A stretch of 64,000 nucleotides of DNA, from NCBI RefSeq assembly GCF_001512295.1, contig NZ_LNUP01000015.1, positions 62,001-126,000 on the forward strand, read 5' to 3'. The translations under genes were made by a program, and so were the position numbers. Shown piece after piece: positions 2,041 to 54,858 of this stretch; position 1 is the first letter of the stretch; each line of letters starts with the position of its first letter. Source of the DNA: Pseudomonas sp. EpS/L25. Lineage in GTDB: Bacteria; Pseudomonadota; Gammaproteobacteria; Pseudomonadales; Pseudomonadaceae. The notes beneath the pieces are model-generated. The model was not told the origin of the DNA and made no database searches. It was given only the letters and a program-made list of their open reading frames with translations.

Positions 2041-2248
2041 CTCAGAAGCTGTTCACGATCTCGCGAGCTAGAGCCAAACAAGGCCTAGGCGGCCCCACGA
2101 AAATAGCTGAGGAAGCGGATCGGACCCGCGCCCGGGTTTACCAGTGGTAAATGAGCATTGCGACGGGGCCGCCTAGGCCGGGCCGGCGACTCAGGCCATT
2201 TTCAACGCCGTTTGGCCGACGCGCAGCAGATCGTGAACAGGTTCTCAG
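2041..2248. repeat. Palindromic intergenic element, copy A
   Basis: About 208 bp with imperfect terminal inverted repeats (left CTCAGAAGCTGTTCACGATC, right complement CTGAGAACCTGTTCACGATC). It has a central perfect palindrome, TTTACCAGTGGTAAA, at about 2137-2151. The same sequence, diverged, recurs at 13660, 18142, 31160 and 54710. The right terminus contains the TGA stop (2245-2247) of the M20 hydrolase. It fills nearly the whole 305-base gap between the lactonase start and the hydrolase stop. No transposase is present. Confidence 0.85.
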
Positions 2249-3426
2249 GCGGTGAGGAAGGCCTCGGTCAGCTTGACCCAGTAGCGCGCACCCACCGGCA
2301 GCAGGGCGTCGTTGAAGTCGTAGGCCGGGTTGTGCAGGTTGGCGCTCGGGCCGTTGCCGACGAAGAGGTAGCAGCCGGGCACCTGCTGCAGCATGTAGGC
2401 GAAATCCTCGCTGGCCGGGATGGGGGCGAAGGGGTGCAGGGCGTCGGCACCGAAGTGGTCGATGGCCACCTGGCGGGCGAAGGCGGTGGGGCCGTCGTGG
2501 TTGACCAGCACCGGATAGCCGCGCTGGTAGTCCAGCTCGGCGCTGGCGCCGAAGCTTTCCGCCTGGGCGCGCACCAGGGCGCCGATGCGCTGCTCCAGCA
2601 GGTCGCGGGTGCTGTCCTGGAAGGCGCGGATGGTCAGCTTCATTTCCACCGCATCGGGGATGACGTTGGAGGCCTCGCCGCCGTGAATGCTGCCGACGGT
2701 GACCACCGCGGTGTCCAGCGGCGCCACGTTGCGCGACACCACCGTTTGCAACGCCATGACCGTGGCGGCGCTGGCGACGATGGGATCGACTGCCTTGTCC
2801 GGCACCGCGCCGTGGCCACCCTGGCCGCGGATGCGCAGGAGGGCGGTGTCGGACGAGGCCATGGCGGCGCCGTCGACGAAGCAGAACTTGCCGGTGGGCA
2901 CGCCGGGCATGTTGTGCAGGCCGAACACCTGGTCGCAGGGGAACAGCTCGAAGAGGCCGTCCTGCATCATCTTCAGGGCGCCGCCCAGGCCTTCCTCGGC
3001 CGGTTGGAAGATCAGGTGCAGGGTGCCGTCGAAGGCGCGGGTCTCGGCCAGGCAGCGCGCGGCGGTGAGCAGGGTGGTGGTATGGCCATCGTGACCGCAG
3101 GCGTGCATGCGTCCGGGGTGCTGGCTGGCGTAATCGAGGCCGGTGGTCTCCAGGATCGGCAGGGCGTCCATGTCGGCGCGGATGCCCAGCACCTTGCTGC
3201 CGCTGCCGGCGCGCAGGGTGCCGACCACCCCGGTGCCGCCCAGGCCGCGGTGCACCTCGTAGCCCCAGCCCGCGAGGGCGGCGGCCACCAGGTCGCTGGT
3301 GCGCTGCTCCTGGTAACCCAGTTCGGGGTGGCGGTGGATGTCGCGGCGCAGGGCGACCATGTCCGGCAGGTAGCCGGCGATGTGGCGGGCGGTGGCGTCT
3401 TGATCCGCAGTGGTGGCAAGGTTCAT
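2245..3426 (-). CDS. M20 family amidohydrolase (hippurate hydrolase-like)
   Basis: A 393-residue zinc-dependent hydrolase of the M20D/amidohydrolase family, which cleaves N-acyl amino acids such as hippurate or N-acetyl amino acids in the cytoplasm. Visible family motifs in order are RRDIHRHPELGYQE, the metal-binding GIRADMDALPI and MHACGHDGHTT, FQPAEEGLGGA with the catalytic Glu pair, GLHNMPG, and ASEDFAYMLQ near the C-terminus with the last metal His nearby. Length is normal for the family. The ATG at 3426 follows the transporter stop by 11 bases, with GAGAGA just upstream, so the two form an operon in which the transporter probably imports the substrate. The TGA stop lies inside the terminus of repeat copy A. 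The exact substrate cannot be read from sequence. Confidence 0.85.
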   Translation of the reverse strand: MNLATTADQDATARHIAGYLPDMVALRRDIHRHPELGYQEQRTSDLVAAALAGWGYEVHRGLGGTGVVGTLRAGSGSKVLGIRADMDALPILETTGLDYASQHPGRMHACGHDGHTTTLLTAARCLAETRAFDGTLHLIFQPAEEGLGGALKMMQDGLFELFPCDQVFGLHNMPGVPTGKFCFVDGAAMASSDTALLRIRGQGGHGAVPDKAVDPIVASAATVMALQTVVSRNVAPLDTAVVTVGSIHGGEASNVIPDAVEMKLTIRAFQDSTRDLLEQRIGALVRAQAESFGASAELDYQRGYPVLVNHDGPTAFARQVAIDHFGADALHPFAPIPASEDFAYMLQQVPGCYLFVGNGPSANLHNPAYDFNDALLPVGARYWVKLTEAFLTA

Positions 3427-12763: not shown

Positions 12764-13663
12764 ATGCCCTACGCCCGTCACCTGCTGCTCTTCTGCCTCG
12801 TCCTGAGCGGTGCCGCGCTCGCGGCACCGATCTACAAGTACGTCGACGCCAATGGCGTGGTGACCTACACCGACAAGGCGCAGAAGGGCGCCAAGGTGAT
12901 GACCTTCAGCGACGACCCGATCGAACGACTGGACCAGCGGGTCAAGCTGCAGCCGCGGCATTATGCCGGTGGCACGGTGCTGGAAGTGCGCAACGACAGC
13001 TTCCTGCCGGTGACCGTCACCCTGCGGCTCTCCGCGCTGCAGAACGTCAGCGGCGTGGGCGCGGCGCCGATCCGCAAGGTCCTGCCGGCGCGCAGCCTGA
13101 CCCGCCTGGCGACCCTGGTCGCGCCCGATCCGAGCCGGCCACAGCGCTACACCCCGCAACTCACCACCCTGATGGGCAGCGCCACGCCGGTCTTCGCGTC
13201 CGGCTTCGCCTATCCGTTGCCCTGGCTGGGCGGGCCCTTCAGCGTCAGCCAGGGGGCCGGCGGCGGCTTCAGCCACAACACCCCCAAGAGTCGCTATGCG
13301 GTGGACATCGCCATGCCCGAGGGCACGCCCATCGTGGTCTCGCGCGCCGGTCAGGTGGTGGAGGTGGAGAACGACCAGGACGGTCGCGGCAACCACCCCT
13401 CCGGCAACTTCGTGCGCATCCTCCATGACGACGGCACCATGAGCGTCTACCTGCACCTGCAGCGCGGTTCGATCAAGGTCACCGAGGGTCAGTGGGTACG
13501 TACCGGACAGGCCCTGGCCGCTTCAGGCAACACCGGGCGCAGCACCGGGCCGCACCTGCACTTCGTCGTCCAGCGCAACACCGGCGAGGCGGTCGAATCC
13601 ATTCCCTTCCGCTTCGCCCAGGCGGTCGACAGCCTACCCAATTTCGCCGTCGGCGGACCCTGA
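12764..13663 (+). CDS. M23 peptidase with N-terminal DUF4124 domain
   Basis: A 299-residue exported protein. The signal peptide MPYARHLLLFCLVLSGAALA is followed by a DUF4124 motif (IYKYVDANGVVTYTDKAQKG, residues about 22-42), a beta-rich middle region, and an M23/LytM domain from about 165. Zinc ligands are likely the His of FSHNTP, the Asp of AVDIAMPEGTP and the HLH of GPHLHFVV. M23 enzymes cut peptide cross-links in peptidoglycan. Its peptidase domain is very similar to that of the gene at 15042, so they are paralogues. The ATG at 12764 was chosen because it opens directly on the signal peptide. The TGA stop forms part of the terminus of repeat copy C. Confidence 0.88.
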   Translation: MPYARHLLLFCLVLSGAALAAPIYKYVDANGVVTYTDKAQKGAKVMTFSDDPIERLDQRVKLQPRHYAGGTVLEVRNDSFLPVTVTLRLSALQNVSGVGAAPIRKVLPARSLTRLATLVAPDPSRPQRYTPQLTTLMGSATPVFASGFAYPLPWLGGPFSVSQGAGGGFSHNTPKSRYAVDIAMPEGTPIVVSRAGQVVEVENDQDGRGNHPSGNFVRILHDDGTMSVYLHLQRGSIKVTEGQWVRTGQALAASGNTGRSTGPHLHFVVQRNTGEAVESIPFRFAQAVDSLPNFAVGGP

Positions 13664-13860
13664 GAGCCTGTTCAAAGGCTGCGGTGCGTCGGCCGAACTG
13701 CGTTGTAAGGCCCTGGGTCGCAGCTCCGCCTGGGCGGCCTCGTCGCACTGCTCACCACTGGTAAGGCCGGGCGCGGGTCCGATCCGCTTCCTCAGGTGTT
13801 TTCGCGGGGCCGTCCGGGCCCTGTTTGGCTCTAGCTCGCGAGCCTTTGCGCAGGCTCTGC
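13660..13860. repeat. Palindromic intergenic element, copy C
   Basis: About 201 bp, in the opposite orientation to copies A and B. The left terminus CTGAGAGCCTGTTCAAAGG includes the TGA stop (13661-13663) of the M23 peptidase, and the right terminus is a worn CGCAGGCTCTG. The interior shares the CCAAACAGGGCC-type arm and the central CACCACTGGTAAGG palindrome core with the other copies. It lies between convergent genes (M23 peptidase and AraC regulator). Confidence 0.8.
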
Positions 13861-15041: not shown

Positions 15042-15929
15042 ATGGACCGACGCCTGACCGCCCTGATCACCTGCCTGACCCTCGCCCTGGCCGCCCCTGT
15101 CGCCAGCCAGGCCGCCGAGTCCTCCGCCAGCAGCAAGGTTTCCGCCAAGAGCCAGGCCCGCAAGGGGCAGGTCAAGCTCAAGGTGCGCACTGCCAGCGAA
15201 GGCCGCATCTTCGAGGTGCGCAACGACTTCGACGTACCGGTTCGAGTCGAATTGCGCCTGCAGCGCACCGTCAACGTGGCCGGCGCCGAGCGGCCGATCC
15301 GCCAGGTCATCGAGCCGCGCTCCACGGTGCAGCTGGCGGTGATCCGCAAGCGGCAGCAGGGCTTCCCCATGCATTTCGACCAGTCGTTCAGCTACAGTCC
15401 GCAACTGCCGGTCGGCAGCCTGCCGCCGACGGCGGACGGCACCGTGGGCGGTAACCCCAGCGGCCTGGGCTATGGCTACGCCTGGCCCTGGCGCCAGGGC
15501 GTCTACTACGTGACCCAGGGCGCCGGCGGTGACTTCAGCCACAACACCCCCAAGGGTCGCTACGCGGTCGACATCGCCATGCCCGAGGGCACGCCCATCG
15601 CCGCTGCCCGCGCCGGCACGGTGATCGAGGTCGAGAATGGTCAGTTCGGCCATGGGCCCAGTCCGTCCGGCAACTTCGTGCGCATCGCCCATGAGGACGG
15701 TAGCCAGAGCGCCTACCTGCACCTGCGCCGCGGCTCGGTCAAGGTTCGCCCCGGCGAGCGGGTGGAGGTGGGCACGCCGCTGGCGGAGTCGGGCAATACC
15801 GGGCGCAGCACCGGTCCGCACCTGCATTTCGTGGTGCAGGCGCGCGAAGGCGGCGAACTGGTGTCCATCCCCTTCCGCTTCGTGCGTCCCCTGGCGGCCC
15901 TGCCCAATATGGCCCTGGGCGACCGCTAG
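15042..15929 (+). CDS. M23 family metallopeptidase, paralogue of the 12764 gene
   Basis: A 295-residue exported protein. The signal peptide MDRRLTALITCLTLALAAPVASQAAE is followed by a basic stretch (SSKVSAKSQARKGQVKLK), a beta-rich region resembling residues 65-150 of the other paralogue (FEVRNDFDVPVRVELRL versus LEVRNDSFLPVTVTLRL), and the M23 domain from about 155. Probable zinc ligands are in FSHNTPKGRYAVDIA and GPHLHFVV. It lacks the DUF4124 motif of the first copy. Role: periplasmic peptidoglycan endopeptidase or, if catalytically weak, an amidase activator like EnvC/NlpD. The TAG stop lies within the inverted terminus of the 119 bp element that follows. Confidence 0.87.
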   Translation: MDRRLTALITCLTLALAAPVASQAAESSASSKVSAKSQARKGQVKLKVRTASEGRIFEVRNDFDVPVRVELRLQRTVNVAGAERPIRQVIEPRSTVQLAVIRKRQQGFPMHFDQSFSYSPQLPVGSLPPTADGTVGGNPSGLGYGYAWPWRQGVYYVTQGAGGDFSHNTPKGRYAVDIAMPEGTPIAAARAGTVIEVENGQFGHGPSPSGNFVRIAHEDGSQSAYLHLRRGSVKVRPGERVEVGTPLAESGNTGRSTGPHLHFVVQAREGGELVSIPFRFVRPLAALPNMALGDR

Positions 15930-16044
15930 TGTGGTGTTTCAGACGTTCGCGCGAGAATTGGCGAGTGATTTTGGGGCGGTTCGGCGCTGCGGCCGAAAAG
16001 GCGCCGCCAACATTGTGTAGTTAACTTCTGAAACACCACACCAG
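15926..16044. mobile_element. 119 bp MITE-like element
   Basis: Terminal inverted repeats CTAGTGTGGTGTTTCAGA (15926-15943) and its complement at 16027-16044 match at 17 of 18 positions, and weaker similarity continues to about 25 bases (21 of 25). The interior of about 80 bases has no coding capacity. The left terminus contains the TAG stop codon of the M23 peptidase. The size and termini resemble a miniature inverted-repeat transposable element mobilised in trans. No other copy is in this window. Confidence 0.75.
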
Positions 16045-16230
16045 TCCCTGCGCCAACGTTTCGCGCTCACCCACCCGGTCGCCAGGCCTCGCGCGCGCGA
16101 CCGAAGTCGTCGTATTGGTCAGAAATCCATTGCCAGGATCGGGGTGAGTGGCGTTATGCTATCACCAGATTTCCCTGTCCTCCCTGCTTCGCCAGCTGCC
16201 CTCTCCCCCTACCAGCTGTGGACGATACCC

Positions 16231-18129
16231 ATGAATGGATTCTTGGCCGCCTTGCGCCTCTGGGGGTGCAGCGCCGTGCTGTGGTTGCCGCTGCTGGTCT
16301 TCGCTACCACCGGTCGCGCCGAGGTGCTGACGCTCGACGATCCGGCACGCAGCTACGATCCCCGCCCGTTCCTGGAAATCCTCAAGGCGCCTGCCAGCCT
16401 GAGCTTCGCCGAAGCCGCTGCTCAGCCGGTGGATGCGCAGCGCGGCTGGCATGCCCCGGGGGTGCTGGAAACGCTGCTCCATGATGGTCGCCAGGGCCTC
16501 TGGCTGCGCTTTCGTCTGCAAAGCCACGACGACCGGGCCTGGTGGCTGATTCCCAGCTGGGCGGTGCTGGATCGGCTGGAGTTGCGTACGCGCAGCGCCA
16601 CGGGCGAGTGGAGCGCGCCGCAGTTCAGCGGGATCGCCCTGCCGGCCAGGGAGCGTGCGCTGCCGGGCCGCCAACCCATGTTCGCCCTGGCACCCACCGC
16701 CGGAGCCGTGGAGGAGGTCTATCTGCGGGTGGATTCCCGGGAGACCTTCGTGCTGCCGCTGCGCCTGGTGACGCCGGCCACCTACCTCACCGAGGCGCAG
16801 CAGGATGCCTGGCTGATCGGCGGTTTCTTCGGTTGCCTGGTCACCATCCTGTTGCTGACCCTCACGCTGTGGAGCTTCGGCCGGCGCTCGGGATTCGGTT
16901 GGTATGCCTTCTACCTGATGAGCGTCATCGGCTACCAGGCGGTCACCACCGGCTATGGCGCCTGGCTGCTCTGGCCGGACAGCCCGGCCTTCGGTCTCCG
17001 CGCGCACCAGGCCTTCGCTGCGCTGTGCCTGCTCAGCGGGGGACTGTTCGTTCGCTATCTGCTCAGCCTCTATCGCGGCGAGCGCTGGCTCGACCTCGGC
17101 AATCGCCTGTTGATCGGCTACTGGAGCCTGGGATTGGTCATCGCTTTGGCCTGGCCGAACCTGCTGAGCTTCCAGGGCCTGCTCGGCATGATGGCGCTGA
17201 GTTGTCTGGTGCTGCTCGGCACCACCACCCACCTGGCCCTGCGCGGCAGTCGCATGGCGCTCTGGTTCAGCGCCGCCTGGGGCCTGCTGCTGCTGGGCAG
17301 CCTGGCGCAACTGCTGACCATCGCCGGCTGGCTGGCACCGGAAAGCCCGGCTCTTTACGGCCAGATGACCGGCTTCGCCCTGGGGTTCGTGATGCTGTCC
17401 CTGGGGCTTACCGAAGGCTTGAGCCAACAGCGGCGGCAGCGGATCGAGGCCCAGCGGCAGGCCCTGGAGGCTTCGGCCGCCCTGGCCCGCGAGCGCGAGG
17501 CCTCCTTCGTCGAGCTGGAACTGCGGGTGGCCTTGCGCACCGTGGAATTGCAGCAGGCCAAGGCGTCCCTGGAGCGGCTCAATCGCGAGCTGCTGCACCA
17601 GAGCCAGACCGACCCCCTGACCGGGCTGAGCAACCGCCGGCATTTCGAGCGGGTGTTCCAACAGGAAATCCGCCGCGCCATCCGCGCCGAGGTGCCGCTG
17701 GCAGTGCTGCTGGTGGACATCGATCACTTCAAGACGGTCAACGATACCCATGGCCATACCCTGGGCGACGAGTGCCTGAGGTGCGTGGCCGAGTTGCTGC
17801 GTCAGCACGCGCAGCGGGCAGGGGAGGTGGCGGCGCGCTACGGCGGGGAGGAATTCGTCATCGCGCTACCGGGCAGCGATCCCGAGGCCGCCCACCTGCT
17901 GGCGGAGCGTATTCGCCAGCAGGTGGCGGGGCTGGAACTGCAGAGCGAGCACGGGCTGCTGCGCCCCTCGGTGAGCATCGGCGTGGCGGTGGCCGTGCCG
18001 AGCAACCTGGAGCATGGTCAGGGCCTGCTGGAGGATGCCGACCGGGCGCTCTATGCGGCCAAGCGTGGCGGGCGCAATCGCGTCTGCCTCAGCGATGGCC
18101 TGCCCCAACTGCTGAGCAGCCAGGGCTGA
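16231..18129 (+). CDS. Membrane-anchored diguanylate cyclase (7TMR-DISM and GGDEF)
   Basis: A 632-residue predicted c-di-GMP synthase. After a signal peptide (about 1-33) comes a periplasmic 7TMR-DISM type-2 sensor of about 150 residues, seven hydrophobic helices (about 195-395), a coiled coil (about 400-455, RQRIEAQRQALEASAALARERE), and a GGDEF domain. The active site reads RYGGEEFVIALPG and DPLTGLSNRRHF marks the domain start, so synthesis should be intact. The RxxD inhibitory site five residues before GGEEF is absent (RAGE), so product inhibition through the I-site is not expected. The ATG at 16231 was chosen because it opens the signal peptide. The signal sensed is unknown. It ends 13 bases before repeat copy B. 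Confidence 0.9.
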   Translation: MNGFLAALRLWGCSAVLWLPLLVFATTGRAEVLTLDDPARSYDPRPFLEILKAPASLSFAEAAAQPVDAQRGWHAPGVLETLLHDGRQGLWLRFRLQSHDDRAWWLIPSWAVLDRLELRTRSATGEWSAPQFSGIALPARERALPGRQPMFALAPTAGAVEEVYLRVDSRETFVLPLRLVTPATYLTEAQQDAWLIGGFFGCLVTILLLTLTLWSFGRRSGFGWYAFYLMSVIGYQAVTTGYGAWLLWPDSPAFGLRAHQAFAALCLLSGGLFVRYLLSLYRGERWLDLGNRLLIGYWSLGLVIALAWPNLLSFQGLLGMMALSCLVLLGTTTHLALRGSRMALWFSAAWGLLLLGSLAQLLTIAGWLAPESPALYGQMTGFALGFVMLSLGLTEGLSQQRRQRIEAQRQALEASAALAREREASFVELELRVALRTVELQQAKASLERLNRELLHQSQTDPLTGLSNRRHFERVFQQEIRRAIRAEVPLAVLLVDIDHFKTVNDTHGHTLGDECLRCVAELLRQHAQRAGEVAARYGGEEFVIALPGSDPEAAHLLAERIRQQVAGLELQSEHGLLRPSVSIGVAVAVPSNLEHGQGLLEDADRALYAAKRGGRNRVCLSDGLPQLLSSQG

Positions 18130-18141
18130 CACCCGCCGCGC

Positions 18142-18335
18142 CTCAGAGCCTGTTCAAAATCTCGAGAGCTAGCGCCAAACAAGGCCTAGGCGGCCCCGCG
18201 AAAAGGGCTGAGGAAGCGGATCGGACCCGCGCTCGGGTTTACGAGTGGTAAATGAGCATTCCGACGGGGCTGGCCTTCCAGGCCATTTTCAACGCGGTTT
18301 GGCCGACGCGCAGCAGATTTTGAACAGGCTCTCAG
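18142..18335. repeat. Palindromic intergenic element, copy B
   Basis: About 194 bp with near-perfect terminal inverted repeats (left CTCAGAGCCTGTTCAAAATC, right complement CTGAGAGCCTGTTCAAAATC) and the central TTTACGAGTGGTAAA core. It is the best-preserved pairing of the family and is in the same orientation as copy A. The right terminus contains the TGA stop (18332-18334) of the CBS-domain gene. It lies between convergent genes. Confidence 0.87.
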
Positions 18336-29003: not shown

Positions 29004-31163
29004 ATGGCCGCCGAGCCTGCGCATAGTGAGGTCCGCCCGACCGGCATCGATTTGCTGGCCGAGCGTCTGGCGGACTACCTGACTCCCGACCAGGTCAACC
29101 TGGTCCGGCGGGCCTACTACTACGCCGAGCAGGCTCACGACGGGCAGCGCCGCCGCAGCGGCGAGCCCTATGTCACCCATCCGTTGGCGGTCGCCAACAT
29201 CCTCGCCGACATGCACATGGACCATCAGAGCCTGATGGCGGCCATGCTGCACGACGTGATCGAGGACACCGGCATCGCTAAGGAAGCCCTCGCCGGCCAG
29301 TTCGGTGAAACGGTGGCGGAGTTGGTGGACGGGGTCAGCAAGCTGACCCAGATGAAGTTCGAGACCAAGGCCGAGGCCCAGGCGGAGAACTTCCAGAAGA
29401 TGACCATGGCGATGTCCAAGGACATCCGCGTCATCCTGGTCAAGCTGGCCGACCGGCTGCACAACATGCGCACCCTGGACGCCATGCCGCCGGACAAGAG
29501 CCGGCGCATCGCCAAGGAAACCCTGGAAATCTACGCGCCCATCGCCAACCGCCTGGGCATGCACGATTTCTACGTGGAATTCGAGGACCTGGGTTTCCGC
29601 GCCATGCACCCGATGCGCGCCGAACGCATCCAGCGGGCGGTCAAGACCGCGCGGGGCAACCGTCGCGAGATCCTCGGCAAGATCCAGGAATCCCTGGCCA
29701 ACTGCCTGGCCCGCGACGGCCTGGACGGCGAGGTGGTCGGCCGCGAGAAGCACCTGCACAGCATCTACCAGAAGATGCGCGGCAAGCGGAAGTCGTTCAA
29801 CGAGATCATGGACGTCTACGGCTTCCGCATCATCGTCGACAAGGTCGACACCTGCTACCGGGTGCTCGGTGCGGTGCACAATCTCTACAAGCCGTTCCCG
29901 GGGCGCTTCAAGGACTACATCGCCATCCCCAAGGCGAACGGCTACCAGTCGCTGCACACCACCCTGTTCGGCATGCACGGCGTGCCCATCGAGATCCAGA
30001 TCCGCACCCGTGAGATGGAAGAGATGGCCAACAACGGCATCGCCGCCCATGGCCTGTACAAGGCCGGGGGCGACGAGCCGCGCGCCAGCCACCTGCGCGC
30101 CCGCCAGTGGGTGAAAGGCATCCTCGAGTTGCAGCAGCGCGCGGGCAACTCCCTGGAATTCATCGAGAACGTGAAGATCGACCTCTTCCCCGACGAGGTC
30201 TACGTCTTCACCCCCAAGGGTCGCATCATGGAGCTGCCCAAGGGCTCCACGGCCGTCGACTTCGCCTACGCGGTGCACACCGACGTCGGCAACAGCTGCA
30301 TCGCCTGCCGCATCAATCGCCGCCTGGCGCCGCTGTCGCAGCCGCTGGGCAGTGGCGAGACGGTGGAGATCGTCACCGCGCCCGGTGCCCGGCCCAATCC
30401 GGCCTGGCTCAACTTCGTGGTCACCGGCAAGGCGCGCACCAACATCCGCCACGCGCTCAAGCAGCAGCGTCGTTCCGAGTCCATCAGCCTTGGCGAGCGC
30501 CTGCTGAACAAGGCGCTGTCCGGCTTCGGCACCCAGCTCTCCAAGATCTCGCCGATGCGCATCCTCTCGGTGCTGGGCGAGTACAAGGGCGTGGTGCTGG
30601 AAGACTTGCTCGAAGAGATCGGCCTGGGCAATCGCATGGCCTACGTGGTGGCGCGGCGCCTGGTGTCCGGTAGCGAGCAGGAAGAACCGCTGGAGCCGCA
30701 GCCCGGCACCACGCCGCAGGGGCCGCTGGCCATCCGTGGCTCCGAAGGCCTGGTGATCAGCTACGCCAAGTGCTGCACGCCGATTCCGGGCGATCCCATC
30801 GTCGGCCATCTCTCGGCCGGCAAGGGCATGGTGATCCACCTGGAAAACTGTCGGAACATCGCCGAATTCCGGCACAACAGCGAAAAGTGCATCGTGCTCA
30901 ACTGGGCCAAGGACGTCACCGGCGAATTCAGCGTCGAGTTGCGTGTCCAGCTGGAGCACCAGCGCGGCCTGATCGCCATGCTGGCCAATAACGTCACCGC
31001 CGCGGACGCCAACGTCGAGAAGATCGGCATGAACGAACGCGACGGCCGGGTCAGCGTGGTCCAACTGGTGGTCAGCGTACATGACCGCGTCCATCTGGCG
31101 CGGGTAATCAAGAAGCTGCGCACCCTCAAGGGCGTGGCCGGTATCACTCGGGTTCGCAGCTAA
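29004..31163 (+). CDS. spoT: Bifunctional (p)ppGpp synthetase/hydrolase SpoT
   Basis: A 719-residue RelA/SpoT homologue controlling the stringent response. The HD hydrolase domain (about 35-170) has YVTHPLAVANILADM and MLHDVIEDTG. The synthetase domain (about 230-350) has KMRGKRKSFNEIMDVYGFRI and YIAIPKANGYQSLHTT. TGS (about 395-455) shows VFTPKGRIMELPKGSTAVDFAYAVHT, then a helical/CC region (AKCCTPIPGDPIVG near 590) and a C-terminal ACT domain. The intact HD motif supports SpoT rather than RelA. It begins three bases after rpoZ. The TAA stop forms the terminus of repeat copy D. Confidence 0.96.
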   Translation: MAAEPAHSEVRPTGIDLLAERLADYLTPDQVNLVRRAYYYAEQAHDGQRRRSGEPYVTHPLAVANILADMHMDHQSLMAAMLHDVIEDTGIAKEALAGQFGETVAELVDGVSKLTQMKFETKAEAQAENFQKMTMAMSKDIRVILVKLADRLHNMRTLDAMPPDKSRRIAKETLEIYAPIANRLGMHDFYVEFEDLGFRAMHPMRAERIQRAVKTARGNRREILGKIQESLANCLARDGLDGEVVGREKHLHSIYQKMRGKRKSFNEIMDVYGFRIIVDKVDTCYRVLGAVHNLYKPFPGRFKDYIAIPKANGYQSLHTTLFGMHGVPIEIQIRTREMEEMANNGIAAHGLYKAGGDEPRASHLRARQWVKGILELQQRAGNSLEFIENVKIDLFPDEVYVFTPKGRIMELPKGSTAVDFAYAVHTDVGNSCIACRINRRLAPLSQPLGSGETVEIVTAPGARPNPAWLNFVVTGKARTNIRHALKQQRRSESISLGERLLNKALSGFGTQLSKISPMRILSVLGEYKGVVLEDLLEEIGLGNRMAYVVARRLVSGSEQEEPLEPQPGTTPQGPLAIRGSEGLVISYAKCCTPIPGDPIVGHLSAGKGMVIHLENCRNIAEFRHNSEKCIVLNWAKDVTGEFSVELRVQLEHQRGLIAMLANNVTAADANVEKIGMNERDGRVSVVQLVVSVHDRVHLARVIKKLRTLKGVAGITRVRS

Positions 31164-31410
31164 GAGCCTGTTCACGATCTGCTGCGCGTCGGCCAAATGG
31201 CGTTGAAAATGCCCTGGAAAGCCAGTCCCGCCTAGGCGGCCCCGTCGCCATGTTCATTGACCACTCGTAAACCCGAACGCGGGTCCGATCCGCTTCCTCA
31301 GCCATTTGATTCACTGGCGCTCACCCTGCGGGCCAGCCGTTGGCTGTTACTCCCGTTGGTCGTTGCGGCTTGTTTGTCTCTAGCTCGCACGGTCGTGAAC
31401 AGGTTCTGAG
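31160..31410. repeat. Palindromic intergenic element, copy D (longest)
   Basis: About 251 bp, same orientation as copy C. Termini are CTAAGAGCCTGTTCACGATC on the left and, as complement, CTCAGAACCTGTTCACGACC on the right. The left terminus contains the SpoT TAA stop (31161-31163). Relative to copies A-C it carries about 50 extra bases around 31318-31370 with their own small hairpin (GCCAGCC-GTT-GGCTG). It separates spoT from ridA, both on the plus strand. Confidence 0.83.
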
Positions 31411-37993: not shown

Positions 37994-38236
37994 CTATCGC
38001 GGCCATGGCGGTCCGCCGAGGCCGCGGTCATCGCCGTAGCGTGGAAAACGGCGTAGCCTTTTCCACGGGGAGTGCGAAACTGGGTGTTCCCTCACCCCAG
38101 CCCTCTCCCAAAGGGAGAGGGGGCGCTTGGAGCGGATGCTCGTCTGCGGTGGCTCAGGCGTAAGACAGTTGCTCCTACAGGCGCTCGACGTACCCGTAGG
38201 AGCGGCCGCATCGGCGGACCGCCATGGCCGCGATAG
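37994..38236. repeat. Compound REP-like element with 26-bp perfect inverted ends (locus 2)
   Basis: The 26 bases at 37994-38019 are the exact reverse complement of 38211-38236. Inside are a GTGGAAAACG...CTTTTCCAC hairpin (38041-38066), a CCCTCTCCC-AAA-GGGAGAGGG hairpin (38101-38121), and CTCCTACAG/CGTAGGAGCGG REP arms (38172-38205). The whole lies between convergent metQ2 and an MFS gene. The rest of the 536-base gap holds the met terminator and nothing else I can identify. Confidence 0.85.
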
Positions 38237-54709: not shown

Positions 54710-54858
54710 CTTAAAACCTGTTTACGATCTCCTGGCCGTCGGCCATACGGCCTTAAAAACAGCTTCGGAATGCTCATCTACAACGTGTAAACGGCGCTTC
54801 CTCAGCTGTTTTGGCCTTGCCTGGCTCCAGTCCAAAAGATCGTAAACATGTTCTTAAG
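54710..54858. repeat. Palindromic intergenic element, copy E (short, diverged)
   Basis: About 149 bp. Termini CTTAAAACCTGTTTACGATC and, as complement, CTTAAGAACATGTTTACGAT match each other and the other copies. The interior keeps GCCGTCGGCCATACGGC and ACAACGTGTAAAC but is shorter. The right terminus contains the TAA stop (54854-54856) of the 75-residue gene. It is the most diverged of the five copies. Confidence 0.75.

Follow-up and report, generated by a model that had tools for sequence, protein, structure and literature searches.

CTAG-targeted MITEs at stop codons in Pseudomonas sp. EpS/L25, with a likely IS630-family parent in the same genome

A short inverted-repeat element that overlaps the stop codon of an M23 peptidase gene in Pseudomonas sp. 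EpS/L25 belongs to a MITE family that numbers no fewer than 70 distinct copies in the genome and whose association with stop codons is real. We consider it highly probable that the family is non-autonomous and moved in trans by an IS630-family transposase, and that a CTAG target, together with selection, places its copies at the 3' ends and stop codons of genes. The family is a further MITE of an already known sort, and its likely parent resides alongside it in the genome.

The window, that is, the whole stretch of 64,000 nucleotides that was analysed, contains this IS630-type MITE copy on the plus strand at positions 15926-16044. At 119 bp it is shortened internally compared with the usual forms of 167-198 bp. 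Comparison of its ends confirmed what an earlier note on this DNA had reported, since the first 18 bases and the reverse complement of the last 18 agree at 17 positions, and an inverted-repeat search of the window extended the arms to 22 nt with 91% identity. The left terminal inverted repeat (15926-15943, plus strand) is identical, over 18 of 18 bp, to both ends of an insertion sequence (IS) at locus L067, whereas the right one (16027-16044, minus strand; 17 of 18) has CCAG, not CTAG, as its outer target copy. The left end reads CTAG, and its TAG (15927-15929, plus strand) is part of the duplicated target and also closes the open reading frame at 15042-15929 (plus strand, 295 aa), whose product matches Pfam Peptidase_M23 with 86.5 bits, as expected from the earlier assignment of gene and stop. 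The nearest orthologues of the peptidase locus are from P. oryzihabitans, P. rhizoryzae and other Pseudomonas, and the window therefore probably belongs in the P. oryzihabitans group.

Sister genomes, to which the earlier note had pointed for an empty site, indeed contained one. A single CTAG without the element stands at the peptidase stop in four of the seven closest orthologues (L069, L070, L073 and L074), and the remaining three (L071, L072 and L075) have CTGA at that position. At L041, where the MITE stands between two convergent genes, all five sister loci compared, out of nine relatives with flank matches, contained one CTAG. The same was seen in two of three sister loci for L058 (in the third, a CTAG follows 3 bases later) and in one of three for L047, with a CTAG a few bases off in another and no alignment in the last. 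For L054, three sister loci gave no information on duplication, and L278 did not align. Empty sites at four loci are thus evidence for insertion of the family.

In a search of the EpS/L25 genome (5.4 Mb, 18 contigs), 40 of 107 candidates were scored and at least 76 matching pieces emerged. When ends were paired within the loci of this first genome search, 42 copies resulted, and longer queries added more, the figure of 70 being a lower bound. Among 98 measured copies, 42 from this genome and 56 from relatives, lengths of 167, 182 and 198 bp were the most frequent; 97 measured 106-199 bp and the remaining one, with a nested insert, 342 bp. The elements are short and multicopy, lack a transposase gene and end in inverted repeats, as MITEs do, and matches were found in nine of the 12 relatives of the genus that were searched.

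The earlier note had proposed a search for a transposase gene flanked by the same termini, and such a gene exists in this very genome. Two places were found with DDE_3. The first, at L067, is an intact IS630-family element of 1,194 bp with 18-bp ends identical to those of the MITE, perfect copies of which, at 900 and at 2076-2093, enclose a 365-aa transposase (NCBIfam NF033545, IS630, 284.9 bits against a cut-off of 100; PF13358, DDE_3, 80.8 bits). The second lies on contig C16 at about 187 kb; stops and frame changes interrupt it, and one perfect end is left. In blastn comparisons with three MITE copies, only the terminal 17-19 bp were common to the MITE and the L067 IS at low E-value; because the likeness stops there, the interiors having no similarity, we rejected the MITE as a plain internal-deletion derivative of this IS. 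Judging by the identical ends, the L067 IS is the likely parent and a transposase of its type would move the MITE, although another relative may be the true source. The unlike interior counts against a mover of this type, and the copies lying off called stops count against the overall model of target word and selection. No protein match to the L067 transposase was obtained in seven of the nine MITE-bearing relatives, and matches in the other two (G003 and G010) were weak or partial, so that most relatives showed no matching mover for the copies they carry. The three relatives without MITE matches (G002, G004 and G005) do possess related IS630 transposases, with 58-76% in the best pieces.

Separately, elements of a third palindromic family, whose ends resemble GGCTCTGTACGAAAA, adjoin first-family copies at L067 (from 2093) and in the flanks of L055, L059 and L064, and one of them is nested in the first-family copy of L038 (2235-2576). 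The end of this third family also occurs in the DDE_Tnp_1 transposase loci L244-L247, which may include its parent. The window itself contains a 32-nt inverted repeat pair (37994-38025 and 38205-38236; 94%, 179 nt apart) unlike either of the two families described here.

IS630 itself reportedly prefers the TA in CTAG, to go by the title of Tenzen and Ohtsubo's 1991 paper. At the 196 ends examined, the duplicated target had an outer base other than C in 10 cases and an inner base other than G in five. The CTAG flanking most copies and the CTAG of the empty sites are compatible with duplication of either TA or CTAG, which cannot be told apart on these data; duplication of TA appears probable. 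Work on ISY100 describes TA insertion with TA duplication in the IS630 family (IS630, ISY100; Tc1/mariner superfamily), the transposase family of the likely parent (PMC2170065), from which the window element differs in lacking a transposase and having only its ends in common with the local IS630-family element.

To relate copies to genes, we rebuilt each empty site computationally and classified it with the same codon-usage gene caller as the free CTAG sites, since the inserted element itself disrupts the reading frame; gene ends are those of this caller and not of a curated annotation. Elements above 400 bp were left out of these counts. In the EpS/L25 genome, 42 of the 70 copies fell on a called stop (35 on one stop and seven on two convergent stops), 27 lay elsewhere outside genes and one (L056) in a gene, with a slight lean to stops because both target copies of each element were tried and the stop-giving one kept. 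Free CTAG sites, counted after masking MITE stretches (blastn) and removing sites doubly counted in overlapping stretches, numbered 46 on stops, 122 elsewhere in noncoding DNA and 75 in genes. Outside genes, stops thus accounted for 42 of 69 copies against 46 of 168 free sites (p 3e-6). The excess was also seen against regions not chosen for the family, where 24 CTAG sites were on stops, 55 elsewhere noncoding and 28 in genes (42 of 69 against 24 of 79, p 3e-4). Of the 54 copies counted in nine relatives, 31 were on stops, 20 elsewhere noncoding and three in genes (L155, L159 and L184), these copies being a part of those matched, from 60 regions, with only identical-flank copies collapsed and shared descent possible. 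The relatives' free sites, with 14 loci taken as candidate empty sites left out, numbered 40, 88 and 56 in the same classes (31 of 51 copies against 40 of 128 sites on stops, p 4e-4). Edge sites (28, 7 and 15 background CTAG sites in the three comparisons) stand outside these ratios.

Coincidence, one of three readings offered by the earlier note, is ruled out by these counts. Its statement that six of six elements end on a stop codon is true of the window, with a weak gene call for the last; across the genome the rate is lower, with 42 of 70 first-family copies and 31 of 49 copies of the second family on a stop. Copies away from gene ends, which it had named as a refuting case, are a minority, 28 of 70 not being on a called stop. 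Its idea of purifying selection against other positions is supported by the scarcity of genic copies: only one of 70 copies is in a called gene, when about 22 were expected from site numbers, as against 75 of 243 free CTAG sites (p 8e-9), and in relatives the corresponding numbers are 3 of 54 and 56 of 184 (p 7e-5). Selection is the probable cause of this rarity. Free CTAG sites are themselves scarce in genes, the 75 of 243 comparing with a coding share of about 84% in a 258-kb sample of this genome, and stops make up much of the noncoding remainder.

As the earlier note had indicated, the remaining five elements in the window are from a different, unrelated family; its target is CTNAG. They lie at 2041-2248 (stop 2245-2247 of the minus-strand gene 2245-3426), 13660-13857 (approximate, with a degraded right end; stop TGA 13661-13663 of gene 12764-13663), 18142-18335 (stop 18332-18334 of a minus-strand gene), 31160-31410 (stop TAA 31161-31163 of gene 29004-31163) and 54710-54857 (divergent, with approximate ends; stop 54854-54856 of a small minus-strand gene, a weak call with score 21). 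Among the 49 distinct copies with paired ends in the loci examined in this genome, 31 are on a stop, 15 elsewhere noncoding, two in genes and one at an edge. Free CTNAG sites number 58 on stops, 129 elsewhere noncoding and 593 in genes, and stops again exceed other noncoding positions (p 1.4e-5; edge sites, 23 and 21 in the backgrounds and one copy, excluded). In contrast to CTAG, CTNAG occurs often within genes, and here selection against genic insertions would therefore have to account for most of the effect. The 16-base end of this family was not found, at up to three mismatches, near the five DDE_Tnp_1 hits of the genome, and these thus yielded no parent for it. At L050, a first- and a second-family copy directly adjoin (2504-2670 and 2667-2860), with their junction in common.

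These observations fit a model in which an IS630-family (Tc1/mariner-like) transposase would recognise the common 18-bp ends and mobilise the MITE in trans, by cut-and-paste insertion at the TA within CTAG with duplication of the target. CTAG is scarce inside genes here and TAG stops are often part of a CTAG, so that the CTAG available at a gene 3' end would mostly be the stop codon itself. Selection would then remove genic insertions and, less so, those far from gene 3' ends, and the surviving copies would mostly be found at gene 3' ends because the others have been removed. Because the duplication would rebuild CTAG on both sides of the element, the gene would retain its own stop, and two convergent genes with one common CTAG would each retain a stop after insertion. 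The arrangement is seen at L038, L041, L047, L058, L063 and L297, where the MITE splits convergent genes, one on each side, whose called stops are in its two terminal CTAGs. Target word and selection would together explain most of the stop-codon pattern.

It is quite unlikely, in our judgement, that the transposition complex itself prefers gene 3' ends or stops beyond the CTAG word, for instance through DNA topology at the ends of transcription. Copies on stops do exceed what free noncoding CTAG sites offer, with odds ratios of 3.4-4.1, but a broad enrichment at stops is also the outcome expected from selection against other positions, 47 of 69 copies as against 66 of 168 free sites being at a gene 3' end or up to 60 bp from it. 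A finer comparison is the ratio of stop to downstream positions inside this 60-bp zone. It favours the stop in the EpS/L25 genome (42:5 for copies against 46:20 for free sites, p 0.02), but not against regions not chosen for the family (24:7, p 0.20), nor in relatives (31:9 against 40:12, p 1.0), nor when second-family copies on the stop are set against those lying 1-60 bp further downstream (p 0.19; 0.10 if a different background is used). Because this preference is uneven between comparisons, we do not claim active targeting of stops, although the EpS/L25 figures leave some room for it. Of the TA-site preference at gene ends that the earlier note had considered, the CTAG target thus stands, on the evidence of the IS with identical ends and of the single-CTAG empty sites, and a gene-end preference beyond the word is not established.

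Retention of copies at stops for a useful hairpin at the mRNA 3' end, which could act on stability, on RNase processing, on bidirectional termination or in separating overlapping convergent genes, also appears quite unlikely. RNA folding does give long hairpins on both strands of the element, and seven of 70 copies split common stops of convergent genes; the window copy, however, has no terminator-like site and the surrounding 15700-16300 gave no Rfam match at the gathering score, so an intrinsic terminator or known RNA family there was rejected. The two orientations with respect to the gene are about equally frequent (24 against 21 of 45 one-stop copies). Among the 98 measured copies, the same change was found on both arms of the terminal repeats 15 times, against 2.4 expected from independence, and 40 of 60 unique double events keep Watson-Crick pairing. 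Palindrome correction by template switching can match arms without selection and could account for this matching, and the terminal repeats behave as if the palindrome corrects itself. Pooled pair-keeping transitions had looked asymmetric between strands, and the unique changes are borderline (88 against 64, p 0.06), but private changes reveal no strand-specific pairing constraint (51 against 41, p 0.35), and strand-specific RNA selection was dropped as an explanation.

The position of TAG within the repeated terminal sequence might suggest that the element landed near the 3' end of a once longer gene and so gave it a new stop codon. This is extremely improbable and was rejected for the window locus, where the four element-free orthologues end in the same CTAG.

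The preferred reading, a MITE moved in trans to CTAG and then sorted by selection, has partial counterparts in other bacteria. RUP of Streptococcus pneumoniae is MITE-like, linked to an IS630-type IS and targeted to TA; its host and sequence differ from those of the window element. MITEPsy1 of Pseudomonas syringae is likewise a short Pseudomonas MITE with 18-nt ends and target CTAG or YTAA, but it measures 100 bp, has another end sequence and a 4-nt duplication, and was likened to ISPsy2, marked 'IS5?'; no stop-codon pattern is mentioned in the portions of that report relating to it (PMC3189936). The Correia elements of Neisseria and the ERIC elements of enterobacteria resemble the present family in being MITEs present in large numbers close to genes, and transcripts of these genes can undergo cleavage at the element (PMC10969869). 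According to the same review, ERIC is reported at gene 3' ends too and Correia elements are mostly directly upstream of genes, whereas most copies here are at 3' ends; neither 'stop codon' nor 'IS630' occurs in its main text (PMC10969869). Among the top-ranked matches in the open-access literature, as judged mainly from titles and the opening of abstracts, we found no report of bacterial MITEs at stop codons.

A broader idea, that two unrelated MITE families independently adopted the palindromic, stop-embedding words CTAG and CTNAG, with stops as safe landing sites where insertion does not alter the protein, convergent stops split and a strong 3' hairpin possibly shaping mRNA ends genome-wide, is rather doubtful. 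What the first family provides is a countable case in which the target word of a transposon and selection jointly determine the places in which copies persist. With a target word that contains a stop, the element can reach dozens of copies with little harm, and it even splits convergent genes that had a stop in common. Should the hairpins also influence the 3' ends of mRNAs, then dozens of genes of this group would have a 3' structure made by a transposon.
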